Positions 11,394 through 26,869 of a stretch of 26,869 nt of DNA are shown piece after piece (position 1 is the first letter of the stretch; each line of letters begins with the position of its first letter). This DNA is from a virus, in the IMG/VR virus record IMGVR_UViG_3300046000_006306, positions 1 to 26,869 of that record. One strand, given 5' to 3'. Below the pieces are notes generated by a model that did not search any database, was not told where the DNA came from, and worked only from the letters and a program-made list of their open reading frames with translations. A program made the position numbers and the translations under genes.

Positions 11394-12458
11394 TTATAAG
11401 AGTGCGGCTGCTGAGGCCGGTTTTCCGCAGGTACTAACACACTGGTAAGGTCTGCCGTCAGCAATGCTGGATTTTTGCCAGGCTTGTTCTATAGACTCAA
11501 ACCAGTCCAAACAATGCTCTAATGTATACTGCAAAGCATTGTTTTCTTTTACCATTGGTGCCAATTCCTTATTACCCGGATGGCTCATGGTGTGTGGATA
11601 AAACCCTAAAAAGCAGCAAGGATAAACAGATCCGTCAGCAGCAATATAAATTTCTTGAGTTTGTTTATGAATGCAATTCATTGTGAGATCTGGAATATCT
11701 TTATGTGATCTAAAAGTTTTGGCATCATACCACGAAATGTGATTTTCTAATAGTGCTTCGACTGGCGGGACTTCTCCAGGTTCTTTGGGTCCAATCACAT
11801 GACTAAATTTACCGTCTCTAGTGAACACTGGACCGCGATCCCGTCCATCATATATATTTTCAAATCCAAAAAATCCCAGTTCACGAGCCATCTGTCTACA
11901 TTCTTGTTCTTGATGTCGATTGTGTTCAAATGGCACAAATCTCCAAATAGCTCGTCCACCTGCTTGAATTAACGACTGAGCATGTTCGATGATTCTATGC
12001 CAATCAGTATCTTGACGATACAGTTTATGAGTGTCTGCCATCCCATCAATAGCAAATCCCACAGTGACGTCAGGCAGAGCAAGTCTTCTCCACCATTCAG
12101 AATTGCGCAAACTGCCGTTGGTGTTGATATGCACTGGAACTCGGTGTTCAGCAACATATTCAACTATGTCCACAGCATCACGAGCTGATGCAAAATCTCC
12201 AAGATTGCCATTGAAAGTAATGCCCCTAAATCCAAATACTTTTGGTATCAACCCGTTAATAGGCGCCTCGGGTTGAATTAGTTGTGCCAACAGTTCAGGA
12301 GTCACAATGTGCTTGAAATCTGCTAGAGACAATTCGCATGTTGGATAACCAGAGTTGTACTCATAGCCTCTGTAGTTTCTCATGCACATGGGACAGCGAG
12401 CATTACATCTTGTGGTCAATTCAATGTGCAATCGACGAATTTCTGATAGTTTTAACAT
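11394..12458 (-). CDS. Radical SAM enzyme with SPASM-like C-terminal cysteines
   Basis: 354 residues from the ATG at 12458. A longer frame from a TTG at 12506 exists but would run through the divergent promoter region, and the conserved part begins only after the ATG. The radical SAM cluster motif is CNARCPMC (C18, C22, C25), followed by the Gly-rich strand GFRGITFNGNLGD. C-terminal cysteines in NCIHKQTQEIYIAADG, VYPCCFLG and CVSTCG fit a SPASM/twitch domain binding extra iron-sulfur clusters. Such enzymes use S-adenosylmethionine to modify peptides, sugars or small molecules. It is the first gene of the minus-strand operon with two glycosyltransferase-like genes. Its substrate is unknown; a sugar or a virion protein is possible. 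The start lies only five bases from a TATAAATA box. Confidence 0.85.
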   Translation of the reverse strand: MLKLSEIRRLHIELTTRCNARCPMCMRNYRGYEYNSGYPTCELSLADFKHIVTPELLAQLIQPEAPINGLIPKVFGFRGITFNGNLGDFASARDAVDIVEYVAEHRVPVHINTNGSLRNSEWWRRLALPDVTVGFAIDGMADTHKLYRQDTDWHRIIEHAQSLIQAGGRAIWRFVPFEHNRHQEQECRQMARELGFFGFENIYDGRDRGPVFTRDGKFSHVIGPKEPGEVPPVEALLENHISWYDAKTFRSHKDIPDLTMNCIHKQTQEIYIAADGSVYPCCFLGFYPHTMSHPGNKELAPMVKENNALQYTLEHCLDWFESIEQAWQKSSIADGRPYQCVSTCGKPASAAALL

Positions 12459-12460
12459 TG

Positions 12461-12494
12461 AGATATTTATAGCTGTATATTTTACTAAATATCT
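12461..12494. promoter_or_regulatory. Inverted repeat with divergent late-promoter-like boxes
   Basis: The 37-base gap between two divergent genes holds a perfect 9-base inverted repeat: AGATATTTA at 12461-12469 and TAAATATCT at 12486-12494, separated by 16 bases. On the minus strand the left arm makes TATAAATA (12464-12471), the exact T4 late promoter consensus, five bases before the ATG of the radical SAM gene. On the plus strand the right arm makes ACTAAATA, four bases before the ATG of the 98-residue protein. Both genes therefore begin within the same TAAATATCT(C)AATG context and would have nearly leaderless mRNAs. A protein-binding operator is the other reading. Confidence 0.5.
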
Positions 12495-12495
12495 A

Positions 12496-12792
12496 ATGCA
12501 GACCAAATCAATTCAAGTTCAGTGCGATGTTTATTGCAGGTGGGATGGCAACGACACCCGCTATAGACTGTATGTAAATGATGAGCTGTTTACAGAGAGA
12601 TCTTGGATCTGGAATGATAAAGAATACTATTTGGAAGAAGTGATAACTATCGAAGCACCCCCGGGGCAATACGAAATCAAATATGAGCTGCTTGAGCCCA
12701 CCCACAGCAAATTAGGAATAAAAAACATGCGAGTAACCAGCGGAACTGCTACCATACACAAAAATCAGACAACATTGGAAATACCATCATGA
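12496..12792 (+). CDS. 98-residue beta-rich conserved phage protein
   Basis: Starts MQTKSIQVQCDVYCRWDG, then TRYRLYVNDELFTERSWIW, EAPPGQYEIKYELLEP and a final strand ending at IPS. Alternating hydrophobic residues suggest an all-beta sandwich. I recognise it as a small protein typical of T4-like aquatic phages, usually near virion genes, without known function. A longer frame from 12382 exists, but it lies inside the radical SAM gene on the other strand; the ATG at 12496 leaves the divergent promoter free. No Shine-Dalgarno sequence is visible. The stop overlaps the next start (ATGA). A virion decoration or structural role is inference. Confidence 0.7.
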   Translation: MQTKSIQVQCDVYCRWDGNDTRYRLYVNDELFTERSWIWNDKEYYLEEVITIEAPPGQYEIKYELLEPTHSKLGIKNMRVTSGTATIHKNQTTLEIPS

Positions 12793-17903: not shown

Positions 17904-20564
17904 ATGAGTTATATTGACGCACTATTTGATCGTGAGCACGATCGCATTCATGTATTAGAACGCCGCGACGGCGTAAGACAGTACAAAGAGTATCCTGCCA
18001 ACTACATCTTCTATTACGACGACCCTAGGGGCAAATTTCAAAGCATCTATGGCACGCCGGTCAATAGATTTTCATCACGCAACAACAAAGAATTTCGCAA
18101 GGAAGTTCGCAGCCAGTCCGGCAAGCAGTTGTATGAATCGGACATCAACCCCATCTTTAGATGCTTGGAAGAAAACTACAAAGACCAAGACGCTCCGGAA
18201 CTGCATACAGCATTTTTTGACATTGAAGTTGCATTTGACCAAGAACGTGGATTCTCGCCTGTGGCAGATCCGTTCAATCCCATCACTGCCATATCTGTCT
18301 ATTTGGATTGGTTGGATCAGATGATCACCTTGACTGTGCCTCCCAAACACTTGAGTTGGGACACAGCACAAGAGCTGGTGAGTGAGTTTGAAAACACCAT
18401 CTTGTTTGAGCGTGAAGAAGACATGATCAAGATGTTCTTGGATGTGATTGAAGATGCAGATGTGCTTACCGGTTGGAACTCAGAAGGCTATGACATTCCT
18501 TACACAGTGAATCGTACCACACGCATACTCAGCAAGGATGACACACGGCGTTTTTGTTTGTGGGGACAGTTTCCCAAGCAACGCATGTTTGAACGCTTTG
18601 GCGCAGAGAATCAGACCTACGACTTGATTGGTCGTGTGCATATGGACTACATGCAGTTGTATCGCAAGTACACATACGAAGAACGCCACTCATACAGCCT
18701 GGATGCCATTGGCGAATATGAACTGGGCGAACGCAAAACACAGTTTGAAGGCACACTGGATCAGTTGTACAATCAGCACTTCAAGAAGTTCATTGAGTAC
18801 AACCGCCAAGACACTATGATCATTGCCAAGTTGGACAAGAAACTGCGTTTCTTGGATCTAGCCAATGAACTGGCGCATGCCAATACTGTGTTGCTACAAA
18901 CCACAATGGGTGCTGTGGCAGTGACTGAACAGGCCATTATCAACGAAGCGCATGAGCGTGGCATGGTTGTGCCCAATCGCAAGCAACGTCTTACAGATGA
19001 TGACACACAGGCCGCAGGTGCGTATGTGGCATACCCTAAAAAGGGCCTGCACATGTGGATTGGATCAGTGGACATCAACAGTCTATATCCATCTGCAATT
19101 CGTGCCATGAACATGGGTCCAGAAACTGTGGTAGGCCAATTGCGGCAAACCATGACTGATCATTTGATCAAAGCCAACATGGCTAAAGGGCAAAGTTTTG
19201 CGGCTGCATGGGAAGGTTTGTTTGCCAGTTTAGAATACACCGCCGTAATGGAACAACAGCGTGGCACAGAAATTACCATCGACTGGGAAGGTGGCGAAGA
19301 GTCGGTCCACTCAGCTATGGAAATCTGGCACATGATCTTTGATAGCAACCAACCCTGGATCCTCACTGCCAATGGTACCATTCTTACTTACGAGAAGAAA
19401 GGCATTATTCCCGGCTTGCTGGAACGCTGGTATCGTGAACGGCAAGAACTGCAAGCCAAGAAGAAAGAAACCAAGGATGCCAAAGAGATTGCGTTTTGGG
19501 ACAAGCGTCAGTTGGTCAAGAAGATTAACTTGAATAGCTTGTATGGTGCTATTTTGAATCCAGGCTGTAGATTCTTTGACAAGCGTATTGGTCAGTCAAC
19601 CACACTTGCTGGCAGATCAATTGCCAAGCACATGGATGCTCACATCAACGAGTGCATTACAGGCGAATACGATCACACAGGTAAAGCTATCATTTACGGT
19701 GACACAGACTCATGCTATTTTTCTGCATGGCCCATCTTGGAAAAAGAAGTTGCAGAAGGGCGCATGGAATGGTCAAAAGAAACTTGCATCCAACTGTATG
19801 ATTCAATTGCTGATCAAGTTAACGAGAGTTTTCCGGCATTTATGGAACAGGCATTCCATTGTCCCAGAGACATGGGATCCTTGATCAAGGCAGGCCGTGA
19901 ACTGGTTGCTGACCGCAGTTTGTTCATTACCAAGAAGCGTTATGCTGTGAACATCATTGACTTGGAGGGCAAGCGACTGGATGTGGATGGTAAGATTGGC
20001 AAGACCAAGGCCATGGGTTTGGATTTAAAGCGCAGTGATACACCCAAAGTAATTCAAGACTTCCTGTTAGAAATTCTAAATAAAGTACTGGCAGGTACGC
20101 AACGAGATGAAATTATTGAACGCATTAGAGAATTCAAGTATGAGTTCAAAGAGCGTCCTGGCTGGGAGAAAGGGTCGCCCAAGCGTGTGAACAACTTGAC
20201 CAAGTATGCGGCAGAAGAAGCACGTCTTGGCAAAGCCAACATGCCCGGCCACGTTAGAGCCGCAATGAACTGGAATCAAATGCGTAGAATGAATTCAGAC
20301 AACTACTCAATGCAGGTTGTGGATGGTATGAAAACTATTGTGTGCAAACTCAAGTCAAATGCACTTGGATGGACATCAATTGGCTATCCTACAGATGAAC
20401 AACGATTGCCTGCATGGTTTACTGAACTGCCGTTTGACGATGGACTAATGGAAGCAACTGTTGTGGATCAAAAGGTTGACAACTTGTTGGGTGTGTTGGA
20501 GTGGGACCTTGCGTCAGCTACCAACACAGAAAACACTTTTACATCACTATTTTCTTTCGAATGA
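17904..20564 (+). CDS. 43: T4-type family B DNA polymerase (gp43)
   Basis: 886 residues from the ATG at 17904, chosen because it has GGAGA seven bases upstream and follows the leader palindrome; an ATG at 17868 would add 12 residues from the palindrome region. T4 gp43 has 898. Exonuclease motif I is FFDIEVAFD (D106, E108), the next Asp is in GWNSEGYDIP, and motif III is YNRQDTMII. Polymerase motif A is DINSLYPSAI (D390), motif B KKINLNSLYGA (K539-G548) and motif C YGDTDS (D600, D602). All metal-binding residues are present, so both polymerase and proofreading should work. The C-terminus ends FTSLFSFE, resembling a clamp-binding tail for gp45, encoded 1 kb downstream. Stop overlaps the next start (ATGA). 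Central replication enzyme of the phage. Confidence 0.97.
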   Translation: MSYIDALFDREHDRIHVLERRDGVRQYKEYPANYIFYYDDPRGKFQSIYGTPVNRFSSRNNKEFRKEVRSQSGKQLYESDINPIFRCLEENYKDQDAPELHTAFFDIEVAFDQERGFSPVADPFNPITAISVYLDWLDQMITLTVPPKHLSWDTAQELVSEFENTILFEREEDMIKMFLDVIEDADVLTGWNSEGYDIPYTVNRTTRILSKDDTRRFCLWGQFPKQRMFERFGAENQTYDLIGRVHMDYMQLYRKYTYEERHSYSLDAIGEYELGERKTQFEGTLDQLYNQHFKKFIEYNRQDTMIIAKLDKKLRFLDLANELAHANTVLLQTTMGAVAVTEQAIINEAHERGMVVPNRKQRLTDDDTQAAGAYVAYPKKGLHMWIGSVDINSLYPSAIRAMNMGPETVVGQLRQTMTDHLIKANMAKGQSFAAAWEGLFASLEYTAVMEQQRGTEITIDWEGGEESVHSAMEIWHMIFDSNQPWILTANGTILTYEKKGIIPGLLERWYRERQELQAKKKETKDAKEIAFWDKRQLVKKINLNSLYGAILNPGCRFFDKRIGQSTTLAGRSIAKHMDAHINECITGEYDHTGKAIIYGDTDSCYFSAWPILEKEVAEGRMEWSKETCIQLYDSIADQVNESFPAFMEQAFHCPRDMGSLIKAGRELVADRSLFITKKRYAVNIIDLEGKRLDVDGKIGKTKAMGLDLKRSDTPKVIQDFLLEILNKVLAGTQRDEIIERIREFKYEFKERPGWEKGSPKRVNNLTKYAAEEARLGKANMPGHVRAAMNWNQMRRMNSDNYSMQVVDGMKTIVCKLKSNALGWTSIGYPTDEQRLPAWFTELPFDDGLMEATVVDQKVDNLLGVLEWDLASATNTENTFTSLFSFE

Positions 20565-21499
20565 AACTAAGTCAAGTTGTCGCATACTTAAACTGGCTGG
20601 AACGTCCCGACATGGATCCTGCCTATGGTAATATTACTGACAAGTTGGACGATATATTACATGCTGTTAAAAGTCGTGACGTACAGTATCATTCAACGAC
20701 CGCAGAATTAGATGAGCGTTTGCTAGATGTTAGACATTCTATTTCAAAATTTGATCAATCACTTCAAACTCTAAAGCAACAGTTAAGGAACGACGTCAAT
20801 CGTCTAGAGCCCGAATACTATGCAGAAAGTTGGAAGCGATACGAACAAGAAATGTGTTTTGAAACTGTGGAGCACTTGATCAATCGAAAACTACCTATTG
20901 AGTTTAATGATCGTGAAAGTCTACGCAACACAATAAAAAATTATACCGACTGGCGGCTGCCCGGAATGTTCATTGGCGCTCGACAAGAAATGCTAGTGGA
21001 AGACATGGTGCCAATGGATCCTTTATATCTTGTGGATCACAATTGCGAATTGATTGATGTTGCTATGGCTCCGTTTACCAAAGAATATCAAAACAGATTG
21101 AGACCATACGTAATTAACGACTGGAAAGACACAGAAATTTTTACTGCACTGCCTGTCAATCAATTTGGCCTGGTATTTGCCTACAATTATTTTAACTGGA
21201 AACCCATTGAGATGATTGAAAAGTTTTTGATAGAGATATATCAAAAACTACGCCCTGGTGGTGCATTGGTTTTTACCTATAATGAATGCGATAGTTGGCA
21301 TGGCGTTGGTGCTGTAGAAAATGCTTGGATGTGCTACACTCCAGGCAGTCGCATACAAACAATAGCCAGAAGTCTTGGCTATAAAATTATTGAGCAGTAC
21401 ACCGGAACAGGTGACATTGCTTGGTTTGAAATGCGCAAACCTGGAGAAATCCAAAGTCTGCGCGGCGGTCAAGTTTTGGCAAAAGTAATTCGTCAATAA
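20561..21499 (+). CDS. Methyltransferase-like phage protein with N-terminal coiled coil
   Basis: 312 residues from the ATG at 20561, which overlaps the polymerase stop; an upstream extension would lie in the polymerase frame. Residues about 40-95 are a likely coiled coil (AELDERLLDVRHSISKFDQS). The C-terminal half looks like a class I methyltransferase fold: a strand with PLYLVDHNCELIDVAM where motif I/II would be, FGLVFAYNYFNW (motif IV position), LRPGGALVFTYNE (motif VI) and a closing strand IAWFEMRK. The glycine-rich SAM loop (GxGxG) is not visible, so SAM binding is doubtful. It sits between polymerase and clamp; a role in DNA or nucleotide modification is possible but unproven. Confidence 0.55.
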   Translation: MKLSQVVAYLNWLERPDMDPAYGNITDKLDDILHAVKSRDVQYHSTTAELDERLLDVRHSISKFDQSLQTLKQQLRNDVNRLEPEYYAESWKRYEQEMCFETVEHLINRKLPIEFNDRESLRNTIKNYTDWRLPGMFIGARQEMLVEDMVPMDPLYLVDHNCELIDVAMAPFTKEYQNRLRPYVINDWKDTEIFTALPVNQFGLVFAYNYFNWKPIEMIEKFLIEIYQKLRPGGALVFTYNECDSWHGVGAVENAWMCYTPGSRIQTIARSLGYKIIEQYTGTGDIAWFEMRKPGEIQSLRGGQVLAKVIRQ

Positions 21500-22274: not shown

Positions 22275-22483
22275 TGGAAACACAAAAAAGAACAATCACT
22301 AGAATGGTAACATACAGGATTACTGCCTGGCTGTTTACCATACTATGGACTTACATGTTCACTAGTGATATTGGCAATGCAACTGGATTTGCCACAGCAT
22401 TGCATGTCTTGCTTAGTATTGATTATTACATACACGAACGAATCTGGCTTAAAATAAAGTGGGGTCGAATTGACTCAAGATAA
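22274..22483 (+). CDS. DUF2061-like small membrane protein
   Basis: 69 residues from ATG 22274 (an adjacent GTG at 22271 would add one residue). Two hydrophobic helices, ITAWLFTILWTYMFTSD and ATGFATALHVLLSIDYYI, are joined by a short Gly/Asn loop and flanked by basic residues. The C-terminal YYIHERIWLKIKWG matches the DUF2061 pattern of a Tyr/His/Glu/Trp box after the second helix; the Arg-rich start fits as well. Such proteins are inner-membrane and of unknown function, and are not rare in aquatic phages. It overlaps the clamp stop and the TTG start of the next gene, so it is co-translated with them. No catalytic motif. Confidence 0.7.
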   Translation: METQKRTITRMVTYRITAWLFTILWTYMFTSDIGNATGFATALHVLLSIDYYIHERIWLKIKWGRIDSR

Positions 22484-24089
22484 CTTAACAGCCAAGCAAT
22501 TGGACTATGCTGTATTCCTTCCGGCCATCAGCGGGTTCTATGCCACATTTGTGGGCAAGCAAAGGAATGAACCGTATGTGGATCCCGCACGATTTCCGCA
22601 GGGTCTTACGGATATGGAACAGCTTAATTGGCTCAACTCCACTAAGGCTTTGTTCCCGTATCGCTGGTCACTTGCGTCTGGAGGACATGCTAACCTCGAT
22701 CTCTCCAAACAAGACTGGTCAGAAGACATGGTACGAAACCGTGAGCCTGGCACGTTTATGCTTGGAGACTCGGGCGGTTTCCAGATTGCTAAAGGCTTGT
22801 GGGAAGGCGATTGGAAAGCCAACTCGGGTTGTGCTAAAGCTCAAAAGAAACGAGAGCTTGTTTTAAACTGGCTAGATAACGTTTCTGATTACTGCATGAC
22901 ACTTGATATTCCAACTTGGGTCATACATGATAAAAAAGCAGCCAAGGCATGCGGAATAAGCACACTACCCGCTGCGGTAGCAGCTACCAAGTTCAATAAC
23001 GAATACTTTATGAAGCATCGTAAGGGTGTTCGCAATGGTGGCACTAAGATCTTAAATGTATTGCAGGGTGACAACCACGGCAGTGCAGACCAATGGTATG
23101 AGACCATGAAAGAATACTGTGATCCTGCAAAGTATCCAGACACACACTTTGACGGTTGGGCAATGGGCGGTCAGAACATGTGTGATGTGGATCTAGTATT
23201 GAGACGTTTGGTAGCTTTGCGTTATGATAATTTGTTGCAAGAGGGGGTGCATGATTGGATGCACTTCTTGGGCACGTCAAAGTTGGAATGGGCAGTATTA
23301 CTCACTGTGATTCAACGAGCAGTTAGAAAATATGTTAATCCGGCTTTTACTATTAGTTTTGATTGTGCTAGTCCATTCCTTGCCACAGCTAATGGCCAGG
23401 TATATTACGAAAATGTATTCAAACATGATTCAAAATGGTCGTATCGTATGGGACCGTCAGCAGATGACAAGAAGTATGCTACAGATACACGCAAATGGTC
23501 TACAGGTGTAGTAGCAGACGGTATCTACAATAACTGGCAAGAGAGTCCCATAAGTGATATGTTAACCATGAAGGACATCTGTATCTACAAAGCAGGCACA
23601 CCTAAGACTGGCGTGGTGCTTACTGAAGAAAACTTCCGGGATCCTGCGCTGTATGATGTGCTACCAGACGTTAACAAAAACGGCAAGTGGGGCAAAACGT
23701 CTTGGGATAGTTTCTCTTATGCTTTGCTAATGGGGCATAATGTTTGGATGCACCTGACCGCGGTACAAGAAGCCAATCAACGTTTTGATGCAGGCGAACG
23801 TCCTGCAATGATGCAACGCAGTACAGGTGACTACGCCAAGTTTGAAGATATTGTTGAAGCAATTTTTGCTGCACCAGATAGACAAACAGCCGAAGATATT
23901 ATAAAATTGTATGATACATATTGGATGGAGATTGTGGGCACACGAGGATTCAAAGGTAAAAAAACCAAAAATGCTCGCTCACAATTTCATGTACTATACA
24001 CTTTCGACGAACCAGAAGTTGACACAGAGCCCGAAGATCAGTTACAATCAGAAGCATTACAACTGCTTGAAAGTGAGCAAATTAAATGA
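22470..24089 (+). CDS. tRNA-guanine transglycosylase-like protein, DpdA-like DNA deazaguanine modifier
   Basis: 539 residues from a TTG overlapping the previous gene; the first in-frame ATG is far inside conserved sequence. TGT hallmarks in order: GDSGGFQIAKG (D100), DYCMTLDIPTW (D146), LNVLQGD (the V-Q-G-G motif), WAMGGQNMCD (the A-I-G-G-L motif) and SFDCASPF (D298, position of the covalent nucleophile in FDCVxPTR). The zinc site CxCxxC...H of bacterial TGT is absent. Family members swap guanine for a 7-deazaguanine base. Bacterial tRNA TGT is about 375 residues; this one is longer, has no zinc site and sits beside a nuclease and a QueD-like gene, so DNA modification of the DpdA type fits better. 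Substrate (preQ0 or derivative) is inference. Stop overlaps the next start. Confidence 0.75.
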   Translation: MTQDNLTAKQLDYAVFLPAISGFYATFVGKQRNEPYVDPARFPQGLTDMEQLNWLNSTKALFPYRWSLASGGHANLDLSKQDWSEDMVRNREPGTFMLGDSGGFQIAKGLWEGDWKANSGCAKAQKKRELVLNWLDNVSDYCMTLDIPTWVIHDKKAAKACGISTLPAAVAATKFNNEYFMKHRKGVRNGGTKILNVLQGDNHGSADQWYETMKEYCDPAKYPDTHFDGWAMGGQNMCDVDLVLRRLVALRYDNLLQEGVHDWMHFLGTSKLEWAVLLTVIQRAVRKYVNPAFTISFDCASPFLATANGQVYYENVFKHDSKWSYRMGPSADDKKYATDTRKWSTGVVADGIYNNWQESPISDMLTMKDICIYKAGTPKTGVVLTEENFRDPALYDVLPDVNKNGKWGKTSWDSFSYALLMGHNVWMHLTAVQEANQRFDAGERPAMMQRSTGDYAKFEDIVEAIFAAPDRQTAEDIIKLYDTYWMEIVGTRGFKGKKTKNARSQFHVLYTFDEPEVDTEPEDQLQSEALQLLESEQIK

Positions 24090-24619
24090 ATAGACCCGGA
24101 CACGAAGATACCAATTTCTTTGTAGGCACAGAAGTTGAAGCCAGCCCTGCTGTCAACCGCCGCACATTGTTTGTGGTAGGCTTGCAAACTAACGAAGCAA
24201 TAGATTGGAAGCGTGGAGAGATTGATGCAAAGTCAAAGATGCCGATCACACACATTTATTTTGGTGCCAATCAAAGTTTTCCGAACCCTACTATGAATGA
24301 TGCCGAAACTTGGAGTGCATGGGAACGCATGATTCAACACTGGTTGGATCGGGGCTACTGGTGTACATTGGATCTTGATTCTGCTGCTGTAGAAGGCTTG
24401 TGCGAAGGCGGCTTGTGTGAACAAGCACAATTCATTCCTATGATATCTGTAAAACTACCTTACATCAAATTGCTGGGCTACAATGCCACAATCAAATTAG
24501 ACGATCGAGATTTTAAAGCAACCAACCCTGGAGTATGGTGTCATAGCCTGCATGATTTGCTGGATAGAAAAACATTTACTTCTTGGGATCAATACACAAA
24601 GGATGAAGTGATCAAATGA
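24086..24619 (+). CDS. Conserved phage protein of unknown function next to DpdA-like gene
   Basis: 177 residues. It starts with FFVGTEVEASPAVNRRTLFV, then ITHIYFGANQSF, ERMIQHWLDRGYWCTLDLD, FIPMISVKLPYIKLLGYNAT and NPGVWCHSLHDLL. The alternation of strands and helices suggests an alpha/beta fold, possibly half a TIM barrel; the ITHIYFGANQ and ISVKLPY strands vaguely recall QueE, but no radical SAM Cys motif is present. I remember this family as widespread in T4-like aquatic phages without assigned function. It overlaps both the DpdA-like and nuclease-like genes by ATGA, so it very probably belongs to the same system. Gene certain; role unknown. Confidence 0.6.
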   Translation: MNRPGHEDTNFFVGTEVEASPAVNRRTLFVVGLQTNEAIDWKRGEIDAKSKMPITHIYFGANQSFPNPTMNDAETWSAWERMIQHWLDRGYWCTLDLDSAAVEGLCEGGLCEQAQFIPMISVKLPYIKLLGYNATIKLDDRDFKATNPGVWCHSLHDLLDRKTFTSWDQYTKDEVIK

Positions 24620-25179
24620 AGATTACAAGTATCAAAACTTCATTGCTTGGACAAACTGTTCCGACCAATATCAATGGTGTTGCAGGTAGATATATTGAAG
24701 AATATCTGCAACAAGAAGGTTGGCCTACTGATTTACGTGGTGCTGGTGCAGATGTACCCAAGTACAATCTTGAAATTAAATCTCGTGACAAAGATGCAGT
24801 ATCTCACCATGTTGTAGGCACAATGCTTCCTACAGATATTATTTCAACGTCTTATTCAGACAGTATAATTTTTGAAAAACTGCAACAACAATTTAGAGTG
24901 ATCACTAAAGATCAAGTGGTAGTAAGTACTACTGTGTATGATTTTGCACATCCTAAAATACAAAAAATTTTTAAGGATGGATATGAAACATGCCGCCAAC
25001 AACTAGCTGCCGGCAGTCAAAGCGATTACATCCGAGGCAACGATTATTGTTTTTTTGAACGACAACGCGGTAAAACCAGTTACAAATTTAGAATATTTAA
25101 AAATAAAATGGCTGTGCTTGAAAGCATGGCAATGAGAAGCAAACAATATGATAGACTTTACTCCGGAGATGAACTATGA
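24616..25179 (+). CDS. PD-(D/E)XK nuclease-like protein
   Basis: 187 residues. The N-terminal helix GVAGRYIEEYLQQEG supplies E28/E29, followed by GAGADVPKYNLEIKSRD, a good D-x6-E-x-K site (D46, E53, K55) of restriction-endonuclease-fold enzymes. The next helix and strand (SHHVVGTMLPTDIISTSY) and a basic C-terminal part (ERQRGKTSYKFRIFKNK) fit a DNA-binding nuclease core. Such enzymes cut DNA with divalent metal. An AAGGATG site lies before the ATG, and both ends overlap neighbours by four bases. In context it may degrade unmodified host DNA while phage DNA is protected, comparable in idea to T4 endonuclease II/denB. The motif is clear; target and specificity are inferred. Confidence 0.7.
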   Translation: MKITSIKTSLLGQTVPTNINGVAGRYIEEYLQQEGWPTDLRGAGADVPKYNLEIKSRDKDAVSHHVVGTMLPTDIISTSYSDSIIFEKLQQQFRVITKDQVVVSTTVYDFAHPKIQKIFKDGYETCRQQLAAGSQSDYIRGNDYCFFERQRGKTSYKFRIFKNKMAVLESMAMRSKQYDRLYSGDEL

Positions 25180-25619
25180 ATCAAATTGAACGTGAAACTA
25201 TAGAAAGAATCAAACATCATGCTCAGAAAAAAATCTGGGTCACCTTCCAAAAAGAAGGAATCCACTGCTACCCCGCAGCCGCAACAGATCCAGCCCTTAA
25301 GACGGGCGATGAGTATGATGTTAGTTTCCTTGGCACTCCTCACCGTCATATCTTCCACTTCCGGGTGTGGATTGATGTTGTACACAATGATAGAGACATT
25401 GAATTCATCCAGTTCAAGCGATGGCTCCAAAAACTCTATCAAGACGGAGTCATCCAACTCGACTACAAGTCATGTGAAATGATGTCGGACGATTTGTATT
25501 TGCAAATCGCTGGCAGGTATCCCGGACGCTCAGTCTGGATTGAGGTCTCTGAAGATGGTGAAAACGGAGCCCTTATCAAGTATGAAACTCACCGCCCTAG
25601 TATTAACATTGCTATCTAA
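25176..25619 (+). CDS. QueD/T-fold-like phage protein
   Basis: 147 residues. EGIHCYPAAA (H30) and TPHRHIFHFRVWIDV (H56, H58) place three His as in 6-pyruvoyl-/6-carboxy-tetrahydropterin synthases, whose zinc is bound by one His followed by HxH. The next part IEFIQFKRWLQKLY corresponds to the DFxxLK helix, and VWIEVSEDGENGALIKYE resembles the C-terminal strand with its Glu. The usual catalytic Cys is not placed with certainty (C31 is one candidate). QueD makes a precursor of preQ0, so this fits beside a transglycosylase-like gene. The similarity is limited, so another T-fold protein is possible. GGAG precedes the ATG, which overlaps the nuclease stop; it ends the operon. Confidence 0.5.
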   Translation: MNQIERETIERIKHHAQKKIWVTFQKEGIHCYPAAATDPALKTGDEYDVSFLGTPHRHIFHFRVWIDVVHNDRDIEFIQFKRWLQKLYQDGVIQLDYKSCEMMSDDLYLQIAGRYPGRSVWIEVSEDGENGALIKYETHRPSINIAI

Positions 25620-25630
25620 TAGGAAACAAA

Positions 25631-25852
25631 ATGGCAAAAATCACTATCAAATCCAATCCTCGCGTGATTGAAATCCAAGACGACTTGGAAAAGCTCTTGG
25701 AGTTCTGCCAAGACTATGGCTATCGCTACAACGAGGCTGATTTGTACAACTTCAAGAGTTATGCTTGGCAACAGTATAACAAGTATTCACAAGGCAAGAA
25801 TGCCAAGAACATGTGGGACGAAGACGCTCGTCGCTTTGCCGGAAGATTCTAA
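25631..25852 (+). CDS. 73-residue conserved phage protein
   Basis: MAKITIKSNPRVIEIQDDLE, then FCQDYGYRYNEADLYNFKSY and KNMWDEDARRFAGRF. It has a beta strand followed by helices rich in Tyr, Asp and Phe. I recall close relatives in T4-like cyanophages and other aquatic phages, where they are annotated only as hypothetical. An AGGAAA ribosome-binding site lies 5 bases before the ATG. It follows the deazaguanine-type operon by 11 bases and precedes the oxygenase by three. No catalytic or binding motif is visible, and no function can be given. Confidence 0.6.
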   Translation: MAKITIKSNPRVIEIQDDLEKLLEFCQDYGYRYNEADLYNFKSYAWQQYNKYSQGKNAKNMWDEDARRFAGRF

Positions 25853-25855
25853 TCC

Positions 25856-26443
25856 ATGACCAAGTGGCCACTGGTTAATGTTTCAAAAGATAATACCAGT
25901 TGGATCGCACTGGATACAATTTTTACTGATTATGAACTTGATCAACTTGTCATGCAAGCCAATCAAGTAAAAAAAGTATCCAGTACTGTGGGCAGTGGTG
26001 CAGTTTCAAACTATCGTATTTGTGATATTGCTTGGTTGGAATCTGATGAAGTAGAATCAGATTTTGATTGGGTATATGCTACACTAGCCAATGCTATAAG
26101 CCGAGTCAATAATGAGCATTTTCAGTTTGACTTGACCCACTTGACTGCTTTACAATTTACAGTATACCATGCAAGCAACCACAGCAATTATCAAAAGCAT
26201 TTGGATCTTGGACACCAATTTCCCAACAGAAAATTGAGCTTTAGTGTGCAACTGTCAGACAATGCTGAGTATGTTGGGGGAGATTTGAGATTTCACTATA
26301 TCAAGAATCAGCCTGAAGTTGCACCAAGAGAAAAAGGAAAAATAATCTTTTTTCCAAGTTGGGTAGTACATGATGTTACTCCGGTAACACAAGGAACTCG
26401 GCGCAGTTTGGTAGGTTGGGTTAATGGTCCAAATTTTAAATAA
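25856..26443 (+). CDS. 2-oxoglutarate/Fe(II)-dependent oxygenase
   Basis: 195 residues. The iron triad is H115-x-D117 in YQKHLDLG and H172 in PSWVVHDVTPV, with R182 or R183 in GTRRSLVGWV to bind 2-oxoglutarate. The double-stranded beta helix is supported by the strands TALQFTVYHA, LSFSVQLSD and GGDLRFHY. The length is typical for the prolyl-hydroxylase/PKHD-like group common in T4-like aquatic phages. Members hydroxylate proteins, peptides or nucleic acids; the substrate here is unknown. It follows the small conserved gene by three bases and comes before a truncated phage gene. A role in nucleic-acid or host-protein modification is possible, and the nearby DNA-modification genes make the first worth a look. 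Confidence 0.85.
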   Translation: MTKWPLVNVSKDNTSWIALDTIFTDYELDQLVMQANQVKKVSSTVGSGAVSNYRICDIAWLESDEVESDFDWVYATLANAISRVNNEHFQFDLTHLTALQFTVYHASNHSNYQKHLDLGHQFPNRKLSFSVQLSDNAEYVGGDLRFHYIKNQPEVAPREKGKIIFFPSWVVHDVTPVTQGTRRSLVGWVNGPNFK

Positions 26444-26456
26444 ACATAGGAAAGCA

Positions 26457-26869
26457 ATGAGAAAACTATTTTACATGGGCTTGGAAAGTTATGAAGCCCG
26501 CTACACACTACAACTCACAGAGTGGAACCGGCGTGTGTTTGACCGCAGAGGTCTTGATGTTGTGTATGTGCCTGGCACCACAATTGACAACACACAGGCT
26601 ATCTCGGTAGGTCAGGTGTTGGATGCACACGGTCGCAGTTTCTTTGCCATGAGCCAAATGATGAACTTGGTTCAGCTCATGAAGAACGGTGATGTTACTG
26701 GTGACGATGTGATCTACTTTGAAGACATGTTCCAACCAGGCTTTGAAAGTCTTGGTTACATCATGAACCAGATTCCACAAGAACAATGTCCAAAGATTTA
26801 TGTACGTTGTTTGGCACAAGCAATCGACCCCGATGACTTTGTGCATGTGTGGGGTATGTCAAAGTGGAT
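26457..26869 (+). CDS. Conserved phage protein, 3'-truncated, possible glycosyltransferase
   Basis: An AGGAAA site precedes the ATG at 26457, and the frame stays open to the window end (137 residues visible): MRKLFYMGLESYEARYTLQL, VVYVPGTTIDNTQAISVGQV, DAHGRSFFAMSQMMNLVQLM, VIYFEDMFQPGFESLGYIM, then VRCLAQAIDPDDFVHVWGM. The strand-helix pattern beginning with KLFYMGLESYEARYT suggests a Rossmann-like or GT-B N-terminal domain. I recall this family in T4-like cyanophages and other aquatic phages, sometimes annotated as a glycosyltransferase, without experimental proof that I know of. Only the N-terminal part is here, so the sugar-binding half cannot be inspected. The gene is certain; the class is tentative. 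Confidence 0.55.
   Translation, partial: MRKLFYMGLESYEARYTLQLTEWNRRVFDRRGLDVVYVPGTTIDNTQAISVGQVLDAHGRSFFAMSQMMNLVQLMKNGDVTGDDVIYFEDMFQPGFESLGYIMNQIPQEQCPKIYVRCLAQAIDPDDFVHVWGMSKW

Follow-up and report, generated by a model that had tools for sequence, protein, structure and literature searches.

The 26.9-kb virus record IMGVR_UViG_3300046000_006306 (26,869 nucleotides, analyzed whole and called the window here) carries at 22470-25619 four consecutive genes, A to D, which encode a divergent DNA-guanine transglycosylase-like protein, a conserved protein, a predicted endonuclease, and a QueD-like protein. We propose that the phage places a 7-deazaguanine in its DNA as a mark and that C cuts DNA lacking this mark, so that the phage's own DNA is spared; we give this reading a probability of about one half. 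In its more specific form, the locus would be an analogue of a restriction-modification system, with a 7-deazaguanine self mark that is made without QueC and is possibly sugar decorated, and a MutH-fold nuclease that destroys unmarked DNA. We hold that form more tentatively, at somewhat less than even odds.

The four genes lie on the plus strand, closely downstream of a phage DNA polymerase gene (phrog_262), and each gene overlaps the next by ATGA, as a sequence-only reading had it, with the three junctions at 24086, 24616, and 25176. Gene A (22470..24089, 539 amino acids) has a TTG start, which is plausible because most homologues begin at the same place or within a few residues of it. All four are real genes: A is encoded by at least 599 IMG/VR contigs among 2.9 million, the order A-B-D is conserved, and dN/dS against close relatives is 0.09 to 0.15 for B, C, and D. 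In family searches, none of the four products was recognized by Pfam, NCBIfam, or PADLOC, the dpd proteins of the bacterial Dpd defense island in PADLOC included, and PHROGs has a family for D alone. Weak matches to these collections (adenylate kinase, Adeno_E4, and similar) were dismissed as chance. Searches of PDB sequences with phmmer and hmmsearch gave chance or low-complexity matches only; the "Cake" matches to B were one short stretch repeated and were discarded.

Protein A keeps the motifs of the TGT catalytic barrel: DSGGFQ (D100), MxLDxP (D146), LQG, GWxMGG, HFLG, and ISFDCASPF, with D298 at the nucleophile position. Nearly all of these are invariant in an alignment of 14 homologues that includes those of Paride and Phosso. 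Both active-site aspartates, D100 and D298, are invariant, and there are near-invariant QG (SG in Paride), GW/YxxxG, HxLG, and SF/YD elements, the last matching FDCVMPTR of Tgt. A profile of A matched the DpdA2 proteins of nt-1, ACP17, pf16, X1, and BUCT-ZZ01 in hhalign (E 2.5e-7, probability 93, 190 barrel columns), whereas the pairwise comparison with the single Escherichia coli Tgt gave an E value of 0.002, with FDCVMPTR paired with FDCASPF, and the DpdA of phage 9g gave no match. From these kept motifs and profile matches, A is DpdA-like and nearest to DpdA2 among the proteins compared, as had been suggested; since the curated models, namely, Pfam TGT, PHROGs, and PADLOC, all fail to match it, we place it in a divergent group. 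Pseudomonas jumbo phages of the PA5oct/Paride group encode homologues of A with 37% identity, and Sinorhizobium phage Phosso encodes one with 30%.

The genes around A argue for a deazaguanine unit, in line with the earlier suggestion. In relatives of the window the module stands among genes for 7-deazaguanine synthesis, with QueD and QueE encoded in all eight long relatives and FolE adjoining the module, and the block that holds A also contains the DNA polymerase gene and a clamp-like gene. The unit is similar to the phage DpdA and DpdA2 modification systems (Hutinet et al. 2019, PMC6884629), in which FolE, QueD, and QueE accompany a TGT-like transglycosylase with the same barrel motifs in the vicinity of replication genes. 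It differs from them in the divergence of A, in the absence of QueC, and in the presence of B, D, a glycosyltransferase, and, in some members, nuclease C. Judging from gene content, this block likely marks phage DNA by exchanging guanine for an altered base.

Which base would be made depends on D (25176..25619, 147 amino acids), a member of phrog_17812 (E 5.3e-35), a family without an assigned function. D adjoins FolE, and mostly QueD and QueE, in ACP17, Phosso, RHph_I1_18, BUCT-ZZ01, X1, and phiST. Its H30, H56, and H58, invariant in 21 sequences, stand at the QueD zinc-ligand positions and align with H16, H31, and H33 of E. coli QueD, at a score (17.7) that is weak against a shuffled maximum of 17.6; against a QueD profile from the D-bearing named phages, the C-terminal 42 columns matched with an E value of 3e-5. 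A QueD/T-fold kinship, as first read, is therefore probable from sequence comparison. However, D is not the QueD of the pathway, because a separate QueD is recognized by Pfam in relatives and the catalytic cysteine that precedes HGH in QueD is absent from the D alignment.

Among records with D, 18 contigs and 7 genomes of named phages, 25 in all, none had QueC above the cutoff, with weak subthreshold matches in X1 and two contigs; three DpdA phages that lack D (nt-1, pf16, and 9g) all have QueC. With QueD, QueE, and FolE present and QueC missing, the pathway probably ends at 7-carboxy-7-deazaguanine (CDG), and the simplest reading of the missing QueC is that D acts on CDG. For the same reason, preQ0, preQ1, and archaeosine, the bases that the sequence-only reading suggested looking for, are unlikely. 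Cui et al. (2023, Nucleic Acids Research [NAR]) reportedly described further 7-deazaguanine derivatives and are said to have predicted a phage CDG decarboxylase; a phage whose synthesis goes no further than CDG or 7-deazaguanine would match both the place of D and the lack of QueC.

Protein C (24616..25179, 187 amino acids) had been called a PD-(D/E)XK nuclease from a D46-x6-E53-x-K55 motif. The spacing is exactly that, and in a set of 24 distinct sequences, the most distant at about 30% identity, the aspartate and the lysine are kept in all and the glutamate in 23, the other having aspartate. With the AlphaFold2 model of C (six sequences, pLDDT 84.7), the top Foldseek match in the PDB was MutH (2aoq; E 5.5e-6, probability 1.0, TM score 0.69), followed by Sau3AI (4pxg) and then MvaI (2oaa). 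A blind profile alignment paired D46, E53, and K55 with D70, E77, and K79 of E. coli MutH, so the triad has the MutH spacing; the hhalign score of 20.7, against a shuffled maximum of 19.2, is weak taken alone. Unlike the fold, the sequence is far from these enzymes, at 11 to 15% identity, and the Pfam MutH family gave no match at an E value of 1 for six members of C. C is thus likely a MutH/Sau3AI-type endonuclease, as predicted from the model, and its dN/dS of 0.11 against close relatives indicates purifying selection. The predicted fold of an uncharacterized protein of Synechococcus phage S-CAM7 (BFVD A0A7D5JWA5) also matches C (E 1.2e-5, probability 1.0); at the sequence level, C had no match in the S-CAM7 record. 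Neither tblastn nor profile searches found C in named phages, and a search by short peptide patterns found none in bacterial and archaeal genomes.

What ties C to the module is where it occurs. Searched alone over IMG/VR, C was found in 40 contigs, and all of them have it inside the A-B-D module; as a rule it separates B from D, and once it lies between A and B. Further scans and the survey of B added three contigs, likewise in the module, for a total of 43 and none outside; C lies between A and B in two loci of the collection. This linkage is not due to chance, given how rare A-bearing stretches are among the contigs searched. The proposed joining of nuclease and modification unit therefore holds from the side of C, and the outcome named as fatal to it, homologues in which the four genes are never linked, did not appear; but it does not hold from the side of the module: C is present in 9 of the 73 loci nearest the window that have A and D or C (about 12%), and in many loci without it, B and D overlap directly by 4 bases. 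On a FastTree tree of A with some long branches and with C carriers oversampled, C was gained or lost at least seven times. Its tree distances nevertheless follow those of A (Pearson 0.71) and of the clamp-like gene (0.80), compared with 0.61 and 0.64 for B. With this minority presence, divergence in step with its neighbors, and occurrence in the module alone, C is a long-resident accessory tied to A-B-D.

B (24086..24619, 177 amino acids) has no assigned fold; its AlphaFold2 model (pLDDT 79) had no PDB match below an E value of 0.07. It is the linkage of B that speaks. Among the 80 loci found by searching with B alone, A lies upstream in all 78 with room for it, directly adjacent in 73 and further off or overlapping in 5, and D lies downstream in all 62 with room, directly adjacent in 59. 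In ACP17, a B homologue stands directly upstream of DpdA2; in the PA5oct group, one is present and is unlinked. The natural guess is that B is probably a partner of transglycosylase A.

We imagine the following course. FolE, QueD, and QueE, encoded elsewhere in the genomes of relatives, would make CDG, and D would handle it instead of QueC, perhaps decarboxylating it to 7-deazaguanine. A, probably with the help of B, would then swap guanine in the phage DNA for the D-made base after replication, and the products of the downstream glycosyltransferase, epimerase, and aminotransferase genes may decorate that base. C, as an endonuclease of the MutH/Sau3AI type that depends on metal, would nick or cut sites with guanine in them as long as these are unmodified; host or rival DNA would be attacked, and the modified phage DNA would be spared. 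Known enzymes of the MutH/Sau3AI type are blocked by modification of their sites. Placed among marking genes, an enzyme of this type fits the logic of T4, whose cytosine-specific endonucleases spare its own hydroxymethylcytosine (HMdC) DNA (PMC6071114). Many restriction enzymes are stopped by the 7-deazaguanines that DpdA inserts (PMC6884629), and in jumbo phages, modification is said to permit endonuclease attack on host DNA (PMC7824862).

Several points weigh against this proposal. Marking does not need C, as about 88% of the nearest modules are without it. The DpdA modification reported so far is partial, at most about 30% of G (PMC6884629), and with partial marking some sites would stay exposed if C did not recognize the same sequence context as A. 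The phage genomes give an ambiguous answer: the observed/expected ratio of GATC is 1.12 in C-bearing phages and 1.15 in C-less phages, and for none of the 4-base palindromes is avoidance stronger in C carriers than in C-less phages. This agrees with protection by modification, and it fits an inactive C or one with a long site equally well. Finally, the B-D junction is a cargo slot. In seven loci, radical SAM, SAM methyltransferase, SDR-like, or sugar-dehydrogenase-like proteins take C's place, and small open reading frames also occur in the gap, so that the position of C may tell little about its function.

That last point leads to the alternative that survives best, which we nevertheless consider unlikely: that C is a nuclease of host takeover or DNA processing that acts independently of modification, as cargo at a junction that simply accepts extra genes. 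The unrelated genes filling the same gap in other phages and the repeated gain or loss of C on the A tree are what this would lead one to expect. On the other hand, none of the 43 contigs has C outside the module, though other junctions there carry cargo too, and MutH and Sau3AI do not cut where the site is modified.

Less probable still is a free-standing homing endonuclease, a selfish gene invading the B-D junction of C-less phages. The patchy distribution of C, nearly always in one place and with clean 4-base overlaps whether the junction is filled or empty, is suggestive of such an element. But the in-step divergence of C extends over long distances and C is present in the deepest lineages, the two loci with C between A and B depart from a single insertion site, and the MutH/Sau3AI fold is not known as a usual homing type.

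A role like that of MutH itself, in which C nicks the new strand, briefly unmodified because base exchange follows replication, while phage DNA is being repaired, recombined, or replicated, we rank lower again. The fold and triad of C invite it, and a DpdA would give a transient one-strand mark, as Dam does. However, neither a MutS ATPase nor a D12-class (Dam) methylase was found in 15 long relatives, several of which are fragments, and this makes a simple MutHLS or Dam arrangement less likely, although a host MutS could serve. Very improbable is a role of A on RNA, with the gene set doing no more than raising queuosine-type modification of host tRNA. The TGT fold is common to tRNA enzymes, and phages with preQ0 genes but without DpdA may do this (PMC6884629), but A is closer in its matches to the DpdA2 group than to Tgt, preQ0 is lacking because QueC is, and A lies in a block with DNA replication genes.

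How much of the proposed self-sparing nuclease system is new? The sequence-only reading had taken the pairing of nuclease and modification to be undescribed, and this is true of its parts but not of the principle. Cutting that spares the phage's own DNA is established (PMC6071114, PMC7824862), DpdA-type marking is known, and the system of Pseudomonas jumbo phage PA5oct has been noted before. The T4 endonucleases II and IV (denA and denB; PMC6071114) follow the same principle, with modified phage DNA spared and unmodified host DNA cut, but with hydroxymethylcytosine as the base. PA5oct, credited with a deazaguanine system (PMC7824862), and its kin (Arenbergviridae) have orthologues of A and D 1.5 kb apart, share the glycosyltransferase family, and have QueE near and no QueC; unlike the window, they have B unlinked, and C was not detected in the Paride record. 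As for the nucleases, T4 endonucleases II and IV are not known to be of the MutH fold, and their genes are not known to lie within the modification block in the manner of C. Among the open-licence papers searched, none, judged by title and abstract, joins deazaguanine to a phage MutH. Provisionally, within those papers and the databases searched, three things are new: a large set of DpdA-like proteins accompanied by B, the presence of D where QueC is missing, and a MutH-fold nuclease that occurs exclusively with this module.

The window continues past D with a small conserved gene, E (25631..25852, plus strand, 73 amino acids), which belongs to no family, was found in 39 loci, and usually adjoins D. 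The last gene (26424..26867, plus strand), of which the window holds the 5' part, is glycosyltransferase-like and clusters with full-length glycosyltransferase genes of 65 loci; among its relatives, matches to Glyco_trans_1_2 (E 0.013) and, in Paride, to Glycos_transf_1 (E 1e-3) were below the cutoff. Downstream of the glycosyltransferase gene, at least three relatives have genes for a UDP-sugar-type epimerase, a short DegT-type aminotransferase, FolE, a HIT protein, and QueD, hinting at a sugar or amino sugar on the 7-deazaguanine. Between E and the glycosyltransferase lies a 2OG-Fe(II) oxygenase gene (25856-26443; PF13640, E 1.5e-13) that clusters with no gene of 80 other A loci. Upstream of A, most relatives keep a methyltransferase-like gene (20561-21499 in the window; PF08241, E 4e-4) in the interval from the DNA polymerase gene to the clamp-like gene, and a gene at 11397-12506, part of a three-gene group on the minus strand, encodes a protein with a radical SAM domain (phrog_21308, E 1.3e-15).

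Whatever C does, these genes define a large and previously unrecognized DpdA-like group with an unexplained partner, B, and they make D a candidate enzyme for bypassing QueC, in a setting where neighboring genes point to a sugar attached to the base. Should C be gated by this modification, the locus would be a compact self/non-self system in which a MutH-type enzyme and a guanine analogue replace the cytosine system of T4, and DNA marking would serve the phage in attack as well as in defense.

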